From the NCBI RefSeq assembly GCF_024713975.1, contig NC_091097.1:7682861-7746860 (forward strand): a DNA stretch of 64,000 nucleotides, given 5' to 3'. This DNA is from Paralichthys olivaceus. Its lineage: Eukaryota; Chordata; Actinopteri; Pleuronectiformes; Paralichthyidae. Each line of letters begins with the position of its first letter. Within the stretch, counting starts at the first letter, position 1. The notes below the pieces were generated by a model. It did no database searches. It was not told the DNA's origin and saw only the letters and a program-made list of their open reading frames with translations. Position numbers and translations under genes: made by a program. This document shows, in pieces, positions 55,938 to 63,334 of the stretch.

Positions 55938-56402
55938 AGGGCTGCACGATATGGCTCCAAAATTCACCAATATGAAATTGTGGATTTTTGTTCCAGAGTG
56001 AACGTTGTGGTTTTAAACACTTTTCTATGAGTAGAGAATGACAAACACCCAATCAGAAAAAGGGAGTAGAAACACAACCAGCACCCCTTCACAAATTGTA
56101 TGACACAATACTATAACTTAGATGTCAAGCTCACCTATTATACAATAAACAAGATACTAGAAGATATTTTGAAACACAAGATACTAGAAGATATTTTGAA
56201 ACACAAGATACTAGAAGATATTTTGAAACACAAGATACTAGAAGATATTTTGAAACACAAGATACAATCAGATATAATCACAAACACATAAATCAGTACA
56301 TAAGTAATACACTGAAGTTATTGGAGGCAGTAATGGAAGATTATTTTTGTGTTTTTTTGTATTATCATCACAATCATTGATATTGTTTTATTGCCCAGCC
56401 CT
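55938..56402. mobile_element. MITE-like element with inserted minisatellite
   Basis: The ends AGGGCTGCACGATATGGC and ATTGTTTTATTGCCCAGCCCT form terminal inverted repeats typical of a non-autonomous fish DNA transposon. It has no transposase. A related worn copy lies at 44,198-44,450. No convincing target-site duplication was seen. Located in the first intron of the DTX3L-like gene. Confidence 0.65.
56151..56265. repeat. 27-bp minisatellite, about 4.3 copies
   Basis: Unit AAGATACTAGAAGATATTTT followed by GAAACAC. Full copies start at 56,151, 56,178, 56,205 and 56,232, then a 7-base partial. The copies are identical, so the array expanded recently. The length is a multiple of three, so one frame stays open (ILEDILKHK repeated), but there is no gene context. 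Confidence 0.95.
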
Positions 56403-56471
56403 CCCGCATACATAAGCTGCATTTGCACTAAAAGCAAAAACATTTTAAATTAGAATTAGAGGTATAATATG

Positions 56472-57308
56472 CTGGATGGCTCAAAAATGTCTTGCAGCTA
56501 AATATTGACAAGTCTGAGGTCATGATGATTGGCCCTGACACAGTAAGTACCTGCACCTCAATGCACCATAGGTTCTCTATCCCAAAACATTTGGTAAACA
56601 TGTACAAATCTTGGTGTCACATTGAATAAGCATGGCAGCACAGTATCCAAGTTTTTTTGCAGCTCAGGAAACTCAGTGCATGTTTTAGCAGAGAAACCTA
56701 GAGACTGACATTCATGTCTTCATTTCTCTTCACCTGCCTGAGCCAACAGAGCCAACGTAAATTACAGCTTGTCCAAAATGCTGCAGCCAGACTCCTCACC
56801 AAATAAAAAGAGCATGTTAGCTTCTCTTCATTGGTTTCCAGTCAATGATGTTAAGAATTTATCACTGACCTTGCTGGACTTGCAACTGAGTGCATTTCGG
56901 ATTTTTTGACACCACATTTGCCAGATTGTAACCTGAGGTCCACAGCGAAGGCCCAGTCCGAAGTCCATGCTGAGGACTAGAGGGGACTGAGCCTTTTTCG
57001 TCAGGGCTCCCACTCCTTTAAACAACCTCCTTCTGGCAAACTCCTTATCATCTCTCTGAAAGACATGTTTTTATAGGCGCGCTTTCTCCTATGTCCTGAT
57101 CTTACCAACTAGTTTGACACTTGACACACTGTTTTATTTGATCTTGTTTTTAATTTTTTCTCATCTGTAACTTTTTCTATTTCTCAATCTGTGCTGTAAT
57201 GCGTTGTGATCTTTAAATGTTTCCTATTATTTGCTTTCAATTTTTAATTTTTAACTTGTAATGCATCTTGTAACAGTTTTTTGAAAGGTGCCATATAAAT
57301 AAAGTACA
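56472..57308 (+). mobile_element. LINE (L2-like) 3' end remnant
   Basis: The plus strand carries broken reverse-transcriptase C-terminal sequence: LNIDKSEVMMIGPDT-like, then LQLVQNAAARLLT, then a worn SLHWFPV equivalent, interrupted by stops and frameshifts. It ends with GAAAGGTGCCATATAAATAA AG, the typical 3' tail of fish L2-type LINEs. It is 5'-truncated and dead, and sits in the first intron of the DTX3L-like gene. Confidence 0.75.
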
Positions 57309-57787
57309 TAGTGTTTTTTTTCTACAACACAGAAGAAATATCAGCTGTTGGAGCATTAATATCAAGTATCAGCTTCCAGAACATGACATTGTCTTCTCCT
57401 GCGGATGTTTGATAAAATCAGTGTCAGATGAACTGGAGGAGACACATTCGTAAAATTTGAGTTGGAGAATTATTTGCTCAGAATGTCAGAAATAAAAAGG
57501 TTATTGATGTTGGCAGCTGAAATTGAAATCTCATGCTGATGTAGTGACTGAGAAACCCCCAGTAGAGGGTGTCACATTATCAGTTATGTATTTCTTCCTA
57601 TTTGCAAGGGTGGGGTCTTACATGTCTGCCCGAAATGAACATTTACAGCTTCTCTAAGCAGAATTGTGCTTTGGCTGTTTTGTCATCCACATGTTGATGT
57701 TCACGCTCACCATTCCTGTTTGTGTGTTGCTTCCTTAGCAGAGAGTTTCTCCATCACAGATGACTGTGATTGTGTTCCCCCCAGTAG

Positions 57788-60700
57788 ATGGCAAAGCGGG
57801 AGTGGACGGTGATGGTGAGCGGTCTGCCCACAGACATTGATGGTGACAGACTGACAGACAAGCTAATTATCCACTTCCAGAGGGCCAAGAATGGAGGAGG
57901 TGAAGTAGACTTCATCACTTTGACCAAGGCAACACCTGCCTTTGCCCTCATCAACTTCGAGGACAGCAAAGGTCAGTGGGGTCAGCTCCTGTGCATGTTT
58001 GTGCATATGAAGTGTGTGTGTAAGCGTGTGGGTGTGTTTCATTTTTATTTCACTCTTGCCTCAGCAACGTAAATGTCTTTTTTCTCCAAAGCCCATTTGA
58101 ATTGAACTGAATTGACTGGTCTGAAAGAACATAAACACGCAGGTCTCAAGGTGCAGCATAAAACGCTTCATTAACTTTCGCTTTACACACTCCAAAAGAA
58201 AGTTGCAACCATTTCCAAAGCAGCAGCAATAGTGAGGGATTGCAGTCTGTTGGCTGTCACCAGTGATTTACACTGAGCTGGAATGTTGGCAATGGTCAAT
58301 GTAGTGGCCAATAGTTAAAGCGCTTAGTCAGGATGCTTCGCAGACTGAGATTGATTTCCCTCTGGTGACCCCTCTCACACAGTGGCACACAGAGTCATTC
58401 AACACAGCCGGCACATTCTGGAAGTGGATGGGAAGACGTATATCCTCACTGCAACTGAGTATCACGAAAGCCTAGAGCCAGACAAGGTATGTTTGAAGAT
58501 GTCATTTGGAACAATTCTTCATTATGTCATATATTTTGTTGACCTGTGTACATACATTATACAAAATGTTTCCAACAATGTTGAAACCCAGAGAAATGTC
58601 CATATATATATTCCAAGGACGTTTCATTTCGTTCAACTTTTAAAGGTTCAGTGTGTAGAATTTAGTGGTGAAGTTGCATATTGCATCTGAATACCCCTAA
58701 CCTCACTCTACACTTCCAAACATGAAAGAGAACCTGTGGTAGTCTTCAGTTGAGATAAAAACCCTCAACTTACTTAGTTTATCCAGTTTGGAAGACTGTA
58801 AAAAACATGGCAGCCTCCTTAAAGAAAACAATTTGTACAATTTAGCTGATCACACACTAGTGAAAACATCACCAGGATTATTTCATATTCAATTTCTGCC
58901 ATGAGATCCCTTATACCTAAATCTGACAGACTGAACCTTTAACTGCGTCATATCCACTTTACTCGTGGCTTTGCACATCTATGCTATTACTTCCAGGGCA
59001 AACAACACAAGGAAGGAAAAACACCCTGTTAGCCAGTCGGCTGTTTTTCCTGCCACTGTTTGTATGTTACTCATAACGTATCATGATTATTGACCTACGT
59101 TTATTGTGAATAAAACCTTTTTATACATTAAGTTATCCATGAAGATGAATTTAAGGTACAGTTCAATCAGCAACTCCCATGGTCCCACGCTGCATCACAT
59201 CATCATCAAACAAGGTCTTTTGTGATTGTTTTGATTAAGAGACGCCTACATATTGTACGTTTAACTAGAATGTTGGAAAATGTATAACATTTTCTTTGTT
59301 TTACTGAGGAAAATCCATGAATGCTTGTTGTCTGTCTTCATAGGTCATTGTAGGTTTATCAGCAACTGTCAACTGCAGCCAGCTTCCTGGGGGAATACAG
59401 GCACTGAAAAACCTCCAGAAGAGCCACCCTGGTGTTGAGATAAACTATGACGCAGAAGAATTCTGCACATTGCGTGGTGCTTACTCCAAAGTCCAGGCTG
59501 CTATGGATCAAATACTTGGGCATCCTGGAGGCCCACAATCAGCACAGAGGGACTCAGGTCAGCCTGACCCGACTTGCTCCACGTCTGCTCAGACCGAAAG
59601 GAAGTCTCATAATCAGGGGTCAGAAAGTGACAGCAGGAAACCCAAAAGGCAAAGAGAACAAAGCAAGACAACAAGACACTCAAGCTCTCATAGTGACCTG
59701 ATGCCTATTAGTTATGACGGTGAAGATAGTGACCAGGCCGAGGGTGCAGATCTTTGGAATTCTGGGCATCCGACCGCATCAGAGGAGGACTTCTCACTGA
59801 TTGTGGATGCAGACATGTTCCAGTATCTGCAGAAACACTGCTGGAGAGAATACCAGTACATCCTCAGTCAGTATGGTGTGGAGGTGGTGGATATGACAAA
59901 CCAGGGGTTGACTACTCTGTTTCTGCAGGCTACAGCAGGAGTGAGGAAGGATGGTCAACAGCAGGAGCGCCAGGCGTTGGCAAGAAAGGCATTAAGTCAG
60001 CTTTACCAGGAAAATGAGACCAAGATCCGTCGGGCTCAGCTCCCCAAGTGTATTCTGTCCCCAAGGGGGGGACTGCAAATGGCTATAGAAAGCTTAAAGA
60101 TCCGACTTCCAAAGCTTCTTCTGAATGAGGATGACAGAAATATTAATATCATTGGTAGTAGCAGTGACGTATCTGAAGCGAAGCAGTTCCTTCTCCTGGA
60201 CCATGACAAAGTGAGTGCTAAAAAAGATGATGTAGCCAGTCTCCCTAGATATACCTCTCATGATTCAAGTTCATTTACTCCTGGTGATGAGGTGAGAGCC
60301 ACTACCATGTCCTCCGCTGAAGAGTGTTTGGACGACGGGCTGGAGAGGTCAGACGAGGATAAGAGGAGAGCTAAAGGAACCAGAAGGTACAAACTAGCAG
60401 CTCTGTTAAAGGAATCAGGGCTGGCTACATTAGGTGATCGACCAACTGACTTCAACTTCCGAGGGCTCTCATCTCCGGGTAGACAAACGCGCACAGGGCC
60501 CATTTTAGGGCATGACGTCCTCTCTGAAACAGCAGGGATTCCTGGAGAAAGAGTCTCTACAACAAAATCCCAAATTGCAGGAGGAGACATCTCCTTAAAA
60601 AGTGGAGATTTGTTTGCCCCTTTGCAGAATAAAATCTCCTTGAACTCAAATTTAATGGACACTGGACCCAAAAATGTAACATCCGCTATAAGCACTACTC

Positions 60701-63334
60701 AGTCAAGTTTGTCAGGAAGTACTGTGTCTTCACCTGTAGAGTCTAGATCCTCATTGAAGCGAGCCAATAGTTTCTCAGGAGTGCCTCAGCTGAAGGCTCA
60801 GACTAAGAGTCAGAGGAGTCACGACGACTCCAGCGAGTCTGAAGTCAGAGCCAGGGGCAGGTCCTCTAGCTTCAGTACCCAAACTAAAGGAAGGGACAAG
60901 CGGGAAGTCTACAATGCAGAGGTTACAGTGTTCATGGGGATGTGGCAGCACATAAAAGAAGCCTTCAGTACCCGAATAGACGACCTGACTTCTGATGTCC
61001 AGATTAAAGAAAATCGACTGGCAGGAAGTAGTGAGGTGACCCTCATCGTGAGTGGGACAAACCCGTCCAGAGTGAGTTCATGTCACCTGGGTTTACAGAA
61101 GCTGGTTGAGTCAGTGAGGGTGGACTTCTCTGTGCAGGAGCTGCTCCTGCCAGAGCTGGGCGTCTCTGATCCTGCAGATGAAACTCTACAGGCTTGTTGT
61201 GCTGAGATGCGGAGTCGCTTCAAGAAGGTCAGTATCCAGGTTCTGAAGAAGAGCTTGTTTCTTCTAGGTCCCAAACAGTTGTGTTCTCAGGTTGGTGCTA
61301 CACTGCGGGAGGTGTTTTCTGGAGATGTGGCCCTAACACCCAAACGACAGGACTTCTCTGCCCCCTCCACATCCAACTGGAATCCGCCCACTTCTTTACA
61401 AATGAATGAGGAGCAAAATACTTTTGAAAGCAATTCTCAGGTGATGCTAGAAAGCCAAACAGGCACTGATGGAGGCCAGGAAACTGGAACAAACCATAAA
61501 AGTTACATCGATGAGAAAGAGCCTATGAATGGACGTGTGAATCCACCATTAGTGAGCAAAAACCCTGTCATTATGCAGGAAGTGAAAATTATGGGTACAA
61601 CAGAGATTGATGGACAGGAGGCCAACGCACTAACCAACAATGCTACTGCAGGAAGTAGGAGACCTGTGAATGGTGTCGGGGCAGCGACAGCCTGCATTGA
61701 TAAAGCCACTGGCCTTCATAAGAAGGAGAGAACCATGCACCTTCACCAAAAAGATGGCACGCAACAACAAAAAGCCGAGATCAAGGACACCCTGAGGGAG
61801 TCCAGGGCGGGTCAGTTAGAACAGGGTTACATCTGTGTGTGTGGGGACAGTGGGATGTCAGTAATGAGGACAAAGTGTGGGACCACTTTGTGCTCAAAAT
61901 GTCTGGACTCAGTGCACGTCCACTGCAGAGTTTGTCATGCAGCGGATCCTACACCTCAGGGCATCCAGGGCAAAATGAGCTACTCTAAGCTGCATTTCAG
62001 TTTACCTGGTCACAACAAGGACTCTGCTATCAAGATCACATACTGCATTCCTGATGGTATCCAAGGGGTGAGTGTCTCTGAACATACTCTCACCAAGAAC
62101 AGCTGTATCTAATAGATGCCTTTCACAGAAACCCCCCTCCACCTCTCGGAGTGATGGTTCAGGGATTCAATTGCATCGTAGATTTGAAAACGATCACAGC
62201 TTTCCAGATTCCAACTCTCGAGGGGCGAGGGGGCCACCCAATCTTTGATTAAAGTGACTGAACGTTTTCATGCATACATTAATGTCAGTTCCAAGACGGT
62301 TTGAAACATTAGATGAAGTTATGAGCCATGTTCAACACATAAATGTAGATTGTTTTTTATACATTTGGTAATAATGTGTTATTAAAACCAGCACTAATGT
62401 TTTTCATCAAAGCATATCATTTAGTTTATTGCTAAAAAAACCCCATTTGAATGTGAAGTATCTTTTGAATGGTTATTATTTACCAAAGAATCAGCATGCT
62501 TCTCTATTTTTTTAGCAGTGGTAGTAGTAACATTTTTTGCAAGCTCTTTATTACAGGCACGTTAAAAATCTATGTGACGACTTTCTCATTTTAAATATGG
62601 ATATAGTTTTTATCTTGTCTTATATTTAGCCTCTGACAGGATGTGAAGAAGCATCAAACTAACACCCTTCAGGGAGGCTTATTCTTTTATTTCGTACAGG
62701 ACATAACATTGTCGTGCTGCACAGGATGTGTTTTTTATAGTTTTTTCCATGGCAGAAATCATTATTGGTTTTCTTCCTCTGGATGTTTCTTAGTCCGCTG
62801 TGATCGTCACCAGGCAACACATGCTTATTTATTGTCAAATATCATCAACAGACTGGGTGACACTATCACATTGAATTCTAATAAAATGACTTGTGCATGG
62901 TAGTATTTAGAGGCTTTAATGACTGTTTTTTGCTTTCTATCCTTTAAGAGTGATCACCCATTTCCAGGAAACCCGTTTCAAGGAGGTGTGTTTGAAGCCT
63001 TCCTTCCTGACTGCGAGAAGTCACGGAAGCTGCTGCCCCGGCTGGAGAAGGCCTTCAGGCTGGGACTCACCTTCACGGTGAAGGTCAAAGAGACAGAGGC
63101 CAGGGTCACCTGGGACTCCATCCCGCACAAGACCAGCCTACAAGGAGGCAAATCAGGGTGAGTGAGTCCAGTGGGAATGTGCAAACAGAGCTGTGGAGTT
63201 AAAGGTCACAAACACGAGTCCATGAATCGGAGCTGAACAATCTTCTTTCTGTCTCTCTCAGGAAAGGTTACCCAGATTCCAGCTACTTGACTCGCTTGTC
63301 TCAGGTCTTGACCTTCCATTGGATTGAAGAGTAA
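57788..63334 (+). CDS. DTX3L-like protein: RRM, KH-like modules, RING-like motif, DTC domain
   Basis: Five coding exons: 57788-57971, 58383-58486, 59344-62067, 62949-63157 and 63262-63334. All are GT-AG and in phase, giving 1,097 residues. Residues 4-90 resemble the RRM of DTX3L/PARP14 and NMI-type proteins (WTVMVSGLPTDIDGD). Residues about 97-150, 246-390 and 618-745 look like KH-like modules, separated by Ser-rich disordered linkers. Residues 927-960 are RING-like, with C927, C929, C941, C946, C949, C957 and C960. The DTC domain spans about 965-1097 (LPGHNKDSAIKITYCIPDGI, HPFPGNPFQGG, GYPDSSYL). Deltex proteins are E3 ubiquitin ligases whose DTC binds NAD+ or ADP-ribose; human DTX3L with PARP9 acts in DNA repair and antiviral responses. 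Several catalytic and zinc positions differ here (see findings), so ligase activity is uncertain. Orthology to DTX3L itself is not certain either. Confidence 0.85.
58487..59343 (+). other. Intron of the DTX3L-like gene
   Basis: No gene or clear repeat recognised between the second and third coding exons. Confidence 0.6.
62068..62948 (+). other. Intron splitting the DTC domain
   Basis: Starts GTGAGT after the codons for DGIQG and ends TTTAAG. If retained, the frame runs 14 more codons to a stop at 62,110-62,112 and the protein loses most of the DTC domain. No other feature seen. Confidence 0.7.

Follow-up and report, generated by a model that had tools for sequence, protein, structure and literature searches.

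The 64,000-nucleotide stretch of DNA analysed here (the window; C5:7682861–7746860 of a 588-Mb genome in 25 contigs, by its gene content probably that of a ray-finned fish) contains a DTX3L-like gene whose product retains a C-terminal DTC domain with Pro, Lys and Val at the positions of the ADP-ribose pocket residues H582, H594 and E608 of DTX2, together with a degenerate RING. Judged from its sequence, this protein is on balance probably a DTX3L-type pseudo-ligase that would act as a non-enzymatic scaffold or decoy. The gene lies at 57788–63334 on the + strand and comprises five exons, with a product of 1,097 aa in the spliced model; all four introns have GT-AG borders and the frame is open over 1,097 codons. 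The phases of its DTC exons match those of four DTX3L-like paralogues in the same genome. Its features, in window positions, are as follows.

57788–57971, + strand: exon 1, which carries the start codon and encodes most of the N-terminal NID/RRM-type domain (NID PF07292, with 41 bits for this exon against a cut-off of 25)
58383–58486, + strand: exon 2, remainder of the RRM-type domain, with GT-AG borders and the frame kept
59344–62067, + strand: exon 3, 908 codons in open frame, with KH-like regions, a long, probably disordered part, the degenerate RING and the start of the DTC
59803–60189, + strand: KH_DTX3L-like region, residues 250–378 (PF21718, E 0.0011; its 19.2 bits, below the cut-off of 27.4, make it no more than suggestive)
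61834–61938, + strand: degenerate RING, residues 927–961 (best Pfam RING 10.9 bits; located by alignment with the four DTX3L-like paralogues)
62949–63157, + strand: exon 4, middle of the DTC (Pfam DTC, residues 971–1090)
63081–63104, + strand: KVKETEAR, the shortened counterpart of the loop GTSSTTGETDT in DTX2
63123–63125, + strand: P1063, codon CCG, at the position of DTX2 H582 and DTX3L H707
63262–63334, + strand: exon 5, which completes the DTC and carries the stop codon
63263–63265, + strand: K1075, codon AAA, at the position of DTX2 H594 and DTX3L Y719
63305–63307, + strand: V1089, codon GTC, at the position of DTX2 E608 and DTX3L E733

The interval 62949–63334, which the preliminary description had assigned to the DTC, thus comprises exons 4 and 5 and the intervening intron, with the first part of the domain at the end of exon 3. 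The DTC scores 107.2 bits against a cut-off of 25 (Pfam PF18102), which places it in the DTC family. On the whole protein the N-terminal NID reaches 54 bits against a cut-off of 25, and RRM_PARP14_1 reaches 31.5 bits against 27, so the N-terminal RRM-type domain of DTX3L is present. Both KH matches lie under their Pfam cut-offs (KH_DTX3L, 19.2 bits against 27.4; KH_1, 18.3 bits against 21.5), and domain support for the scaffold part of our proposal is therefore weak. An ordered-looking stretch of exon 3 at 60919–61326 (residues 622–757), KH-pair-like by eye, matched no Pfam model. The domain order is that of human DTX3L (RRM-KH-RING-DTC), to whose DTC (PDB 3PG6) the window DTC is clearly homologous, with 41% identity. 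In contrast to the human protein, which has H707, Y719 and E733 where the window protein has Pro, Lys and Val, the window protein presents a short loop, a degenerate RING and a weak KH match, and its gene has VAT1 as downstream neighbour.

Upstream of the gene, on the opposite strand, lie a spliceosomal EFTUD2-type gene, a phosphatase matching Pfam PF06888, which we take to be PHOSPHO1-type, and presumably a zinc-finger gene, while VAT1 follows downstream in convergent orientation. In the human gene order IFI35 adjoins VAT1, and the window gene, whose N-terminal domain (57788–58486) scores as NID (Nmi/IFP35), occupies this VAT1-convergent place of IFI35; an old link between IFI35 and DTX3L-type genes is possible. 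Identity of the window gene with IFI35 on the basis of its place was rejected, because the window protein has a DTC and because what we take to be the IFI35-like gene, with three NID rows, lies elsewhere on the same contig (C5:5621787–5623394, 2.1 Mb away); an NMI-like gene is presumably located on C10. As to a possible interferon-response element upstream of the gene, the 64-kb window contains 11 loose GAAAnnGAAA cores, and no strict site was listed for 56001–58500. No relatives were found in viral contigs.

The pocket motifs of the window DTC read WDSIPHKT (residues 1059–1066) and GKGYPD (1074–1079). An alignment by eye in the preliminary description had set P1063, K1075 and V1089 against DTX2 H582, H594 and E608, and this placement is borne out by phmmer, by MAFFT alignment of reference DTCs and by an HMM, so that an error of register can be rejected. 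Comparison by phmmer with the solved DTCs of DTX1, DTX2 and DTX3L gave E-values of 3e-24 to 4e-21, the best match being the DTX2 DTC with ADP-ribose (PDB 6Y3J, E 3.2e-24). In all three alignments Pro stands opposite the first His of HHKT and Lys opposite the residue preceding GYPD; the Glu of DTX1 and of DTX3L is matched by Val, while the alignment with DTX2 ends one residue before this position. The reference set consisted of 11 DTCs of the His/Glu type (three human PDB fragments and eight DTCs from the same genome), and the HMM built from them gave the same register. The H582 column contains His in 11 of 11 references and the E608 column Glu in all 10 that have a letter there (the DTX2 fragment lacks one). 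At H594 the residue varies (6 His, 3 Phe and 2 Tyr), DTX3L with its Y719 included, as had been claimed before, and although the Lys of the window DTC falls outside this range, the variability makes H594 the least secure of the three positions. The window DTC still has the second His of HHKT, as H1064. The window DTC therefore has neither the catalytic His nor the catalytic Glu of a Deltex E3 ligase, nor His, Tyr or Phe at H594/Y719, and differs from DTX2 (6Y3J) at all three positions and in a shortened S568 loop.

That loop, between FTV and VTW, reads GTSSTTGETDT in DTX2, where it contains S568 (counting back from H582), and KVKETEAR in the window DTC, which is three residues shorter; the placement of the gap varies among aligners, with the loop length constant. 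Lys replaces both the Gly and the Ser that every one of the 11 references has in this loop. The residue aligned with S568 itself varies among active relatives, being Arg in human DTX3L and Arg, Thr, Met and Ala in the four fish DTX3L-like proteins. Across the whole domain, 39 columns are invariant in the references, of which the window DTC keeps 27 and changes 12. With this number of changes overall, the loss need not be concentrated at the pocket, and the probability of losing both His and Glu by chance is about 0.09 by our own arithmetic.

The codons of P1063, K1075 and V1089 would each need two or more substitutions to encode any amino acid present at that position in the 11 reference DTCs. 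These distances, together with a paralogue showing similar losses (see below), speak against assembly error, and with the in-frame shortening of the loop they led us to reject an assembly or base error as the sole cause. The idea that an intact DTC exon lies concealed close to the gene was likewise rejected, as the genome DTC scan (150 of 243 candidates scored) has a single row at the locus and tblastn of about 39 kb downstream of the window yielded exon 5 alone.

The residues at issue have been mutated in active Deltex proteins. Ubiquitination of single-stranded DNA by DTX3L was reported to be abolished in H707A, impaired in E733A and defective in Y719A (PMC11460948), and nucleic-acid ubiquitylation to be abolished by H707A and by E733R (PMC11467253). 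In DTX2, H582 and E608 are described as strictly conserved among DTX proteins (PMC7615817; PMC10810221), and every H582 and E608 substitution tested, including E608Q, is reported to impair Ub-NAD formation (PMC7615817). The S568A/H582A/H594A triple mutant of DTX2 is reported to have lost ADP-ribose binding (PMC12402299). By analogy with these mutants, we infer that both catalysis and ADP-ribose binding have been lost in the window protein. The preliminary description had proposed that the fold was kept and NAD/ADP-ribose chemistry probably lost, and this proposal finds sequence support on both counts: in the strong DTC score and the invariant columns kept, and in the disappearance of both catalytic residues, His and Glu, and of the loop's invariant Gly and Ser. 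Its further suggestion, that the domain serves as a scaffold or has a new ligand, is plausible.

Aligned with those of the four DTX3L-like paralogues, the RING of the window protein has CVC for CxxC, Thr for the zinc-ligand His and CRVC for CPxC, without a Pro between the last two cysteines. It passes the cut-off of none of the Pfam RING models (best 10.9 bits, E 0.59, cut-off 27.3), whereas all four paralogues pass. The protein therefore does not have a zinc-binding RING of the usual spacing; zinc may still bind, because Cys occupies all seven of its positions and His 954, 956 and 961 lie close by.

The genome DTC scan returned at least 82 rows, a lower bound given the fraction of candidates scored. 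Ten genes were read across the DTC: the window gene, four DTX3L-like genes (C2, C4 and two on C6), four DTX1/2/4-type genes (C4, C15, C22 and C8) and one gene on C17; a partial DTC copy on C11 (L013) was excluded from the alignment. His and Glu are retained in all eight genes other than the window and C17 genes. The two DTX3L-like genes on C6 form a tandem pair (C6:14757000–14774400; L011, L012), with DTC middle exons about 6 kb apart, and both have a canonical RING, HHKT, FGYPD and EEL. By our count, 58 of the 82 rows are copies of a single DTC exon interrupted by in-frame stops (two of them, L020 and L021, were read); they are mostly equal in score, are apparently related to the C4 DTX3L-like gene and occur on C1, C2, C3, C6, C9, C10, C11, C15, C17, C18, C21, C22 and other contigs. 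Many are found near contig ends, at distances of up to about 2 Mb; exceptions are a C17 cluster (16.46–16.95 Mb on a contig of 21.26 Mb) and one copy each on C5 and C12. These copies apparently represent satellite- or transposon-like amplification of a gene fragment.

The C17 gene (C17:15626179–15654491; L024:9680–10000, L022:1–6, L014:5979–6187 and L023:8023–8092) has exons at 15626179–15626260, 15626354–15626505, 15642478–15642686 and 15654422–15654491, in frame and with GT-AG introns, and encodes 170 aa, in which a MGAGQS start is followed by a full DTC (116.8 bits, Pfam). We take this start to resemble an N-myristoylation start. The first exon could be internal, because a possible splice acceptor (CACAG/TATG) lies immediately before the start codon. 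No RING was found in the 40 kb upstream (996 stop-to-stop segments of at least 25 aa), a search controlled solely at the C4 locus, where the RING already forms part of the model. The introns of 16 kb and 12 kb contain reverse-transcriptase-like open frames by eye. In neutral simulations the C17 frame stayed free of stops in 41% of runs at 5% divergence and in 3% at 20%; the gene is so short that its open frame says little. The C17 pocket has Pro at H582, Glu at H594 and Leu at E608. While the C17 gene thus differs from the window gene in its length, its start and the lack of a RING within 40 kb upstream, the two resemble each other in the shortening of the loop, in Pro at the His and in a hydrophobic residue at the Glu. 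The shortened loop, the degenerate RING and this second gene with similar losses were all absent from the preliminary description, and each strengthens the case for lost chemistry.

A common lineage of the window and C17 DTCs is plausible from their sequences. The phylogenetic tree pairs them with support of 81/92, which falls to 60/84 once the trait columns are removed. Among the 39 invariant columns, the window DTC changes 12 and the C17 DTC 15, with 8 common to both (chance of at least 8, 0.02). It is also quite possible, if somewhat less than probable, that the losses were independent and that the two DTCs are paired by long-branch attraction, in which case there would be no shared pseudo-DTC lineage and the functions would be separate, a scenario compatible with the other readings considered here. 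The tree support is not strong, both DTCs are long branches (1.07–1.33 changes per column against a median of 0.27–0.28) and in the first run, with the trait columns, the tool warned that long branches meet; in addition, the C17 DTC is as near to that of C2 (43% identity) as to that of the window (39%). Set against independence are the equal loop length, the Pro at the His and the hydrophobic residue at the Glu in both, and a Leu that both have at another invariant Val.

The same parallels bear on whether the DTC has been repurposed as a reader, with its pocket now binding a new ligand, such as a different nucleotide, a peptide or some hydrophobic group, and Pro and Val lining a more hydrophobic cavity. 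We consider this unlikely. The retention of 27 of 39 invariant columns despite a changed pocket would fit such a role, as would the parallel changes on C17, which look as if both domains had adapted to one new use; however, the H594 position is Lys in the window and Glu on C17, and this difference in charge does not suggest a single shared ligand. It is much less likely still that the window gene is a young pseudogene or in free decay. Its long branch and the damage to both RING and DTC are compatible with decay, but the gene has 1,097 open codons and four GT-AG introns, and in neutral drift simulations of its 3,291-base frame (400 runs each) only 0.5% of runs remained free of stops at 5% divergence, against 35% at 1%, so that just recent decay would be compatible with the open frame. 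The gene has probably been under coding constraint for most of its history. The least credible reading, to which we give very little weight, is that the protein is still a lysine-directed RING ligase that lost just the ADP-ribose branch: H707 and E733 of DTX3L are reported to be dispensable for canonical lysine ubiquitylation (PMC11467253) and the seven RING Cys are present, but the first pair of these is spaced CxC, the zinc-ligand His and the Pro of the final CPxC pair are missing, and the domain falls under every Pfam RING cut-off.

On the favoured reading as a DTX3L-type pseudo-ligase, the window protein retains the DTX3L layout of an N-terminal RRM/NID-type domain, a KH-like region, a RING position and a C-terminal DTC, with a RING–DTC module that would probably be unable to recruit E2~ubiquitin normally or to bind the 3'-hydroxyl of ADP-ribose or NAD and activate it. 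By way of its KH/RRM part the protein would most likely join, block or compete with DTX3L/PARP14-type complexes of the fish's intact DTX3L-like proteins, with the retained DTC fold as a binding surface. TRIM-family pseudoligases, which are not known to have ADP-ribose chemistry, offer a comparison in mode from a family unrelated to Deltex. They are described as RING proteins that have lost ligase activity, TRIM51 being an inactive paralogue that interacts with TRIM49 (PMC11992055). A DTX3L-like protein without chemistry could still regulate, because full-length DTX3L, and not its RING-DTC fragment, is reported to inhibit PARP14 automodification, an inhibition greatly diminished by mutations in KH2 (PMC11251020). 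More tentatively, and with less than even probability, the window and C17 proteins may represent an old fish lineage of ADP-ribose-blind Deltex proteins that serve the ADP-ribose–ubiquitin system as natural antagonists or adaptors, their DTC pocket turned to another use, comprising a large RRM/KH window type with a dead RING and a stand-alone, possibly lipid-anchored C17 type.

Among the matches listed from open-licence papers, we recognised none on inactive DTCs, on a DTC without the His–Glu pair or on fish DTX3L duplicates. Published work describes the Deltex His–Glu pair as strictly conserved; a natural DTC without it, combined with a damaged RING, would be a built-in separation-of-function mutant. 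It could reveal roles of DTX3L-like proteins beyond the ubiquitylation of ADP-ribose or nucleic acid, and could show whether fish use inactive paralogues to regulate this interferon-linked pathway.
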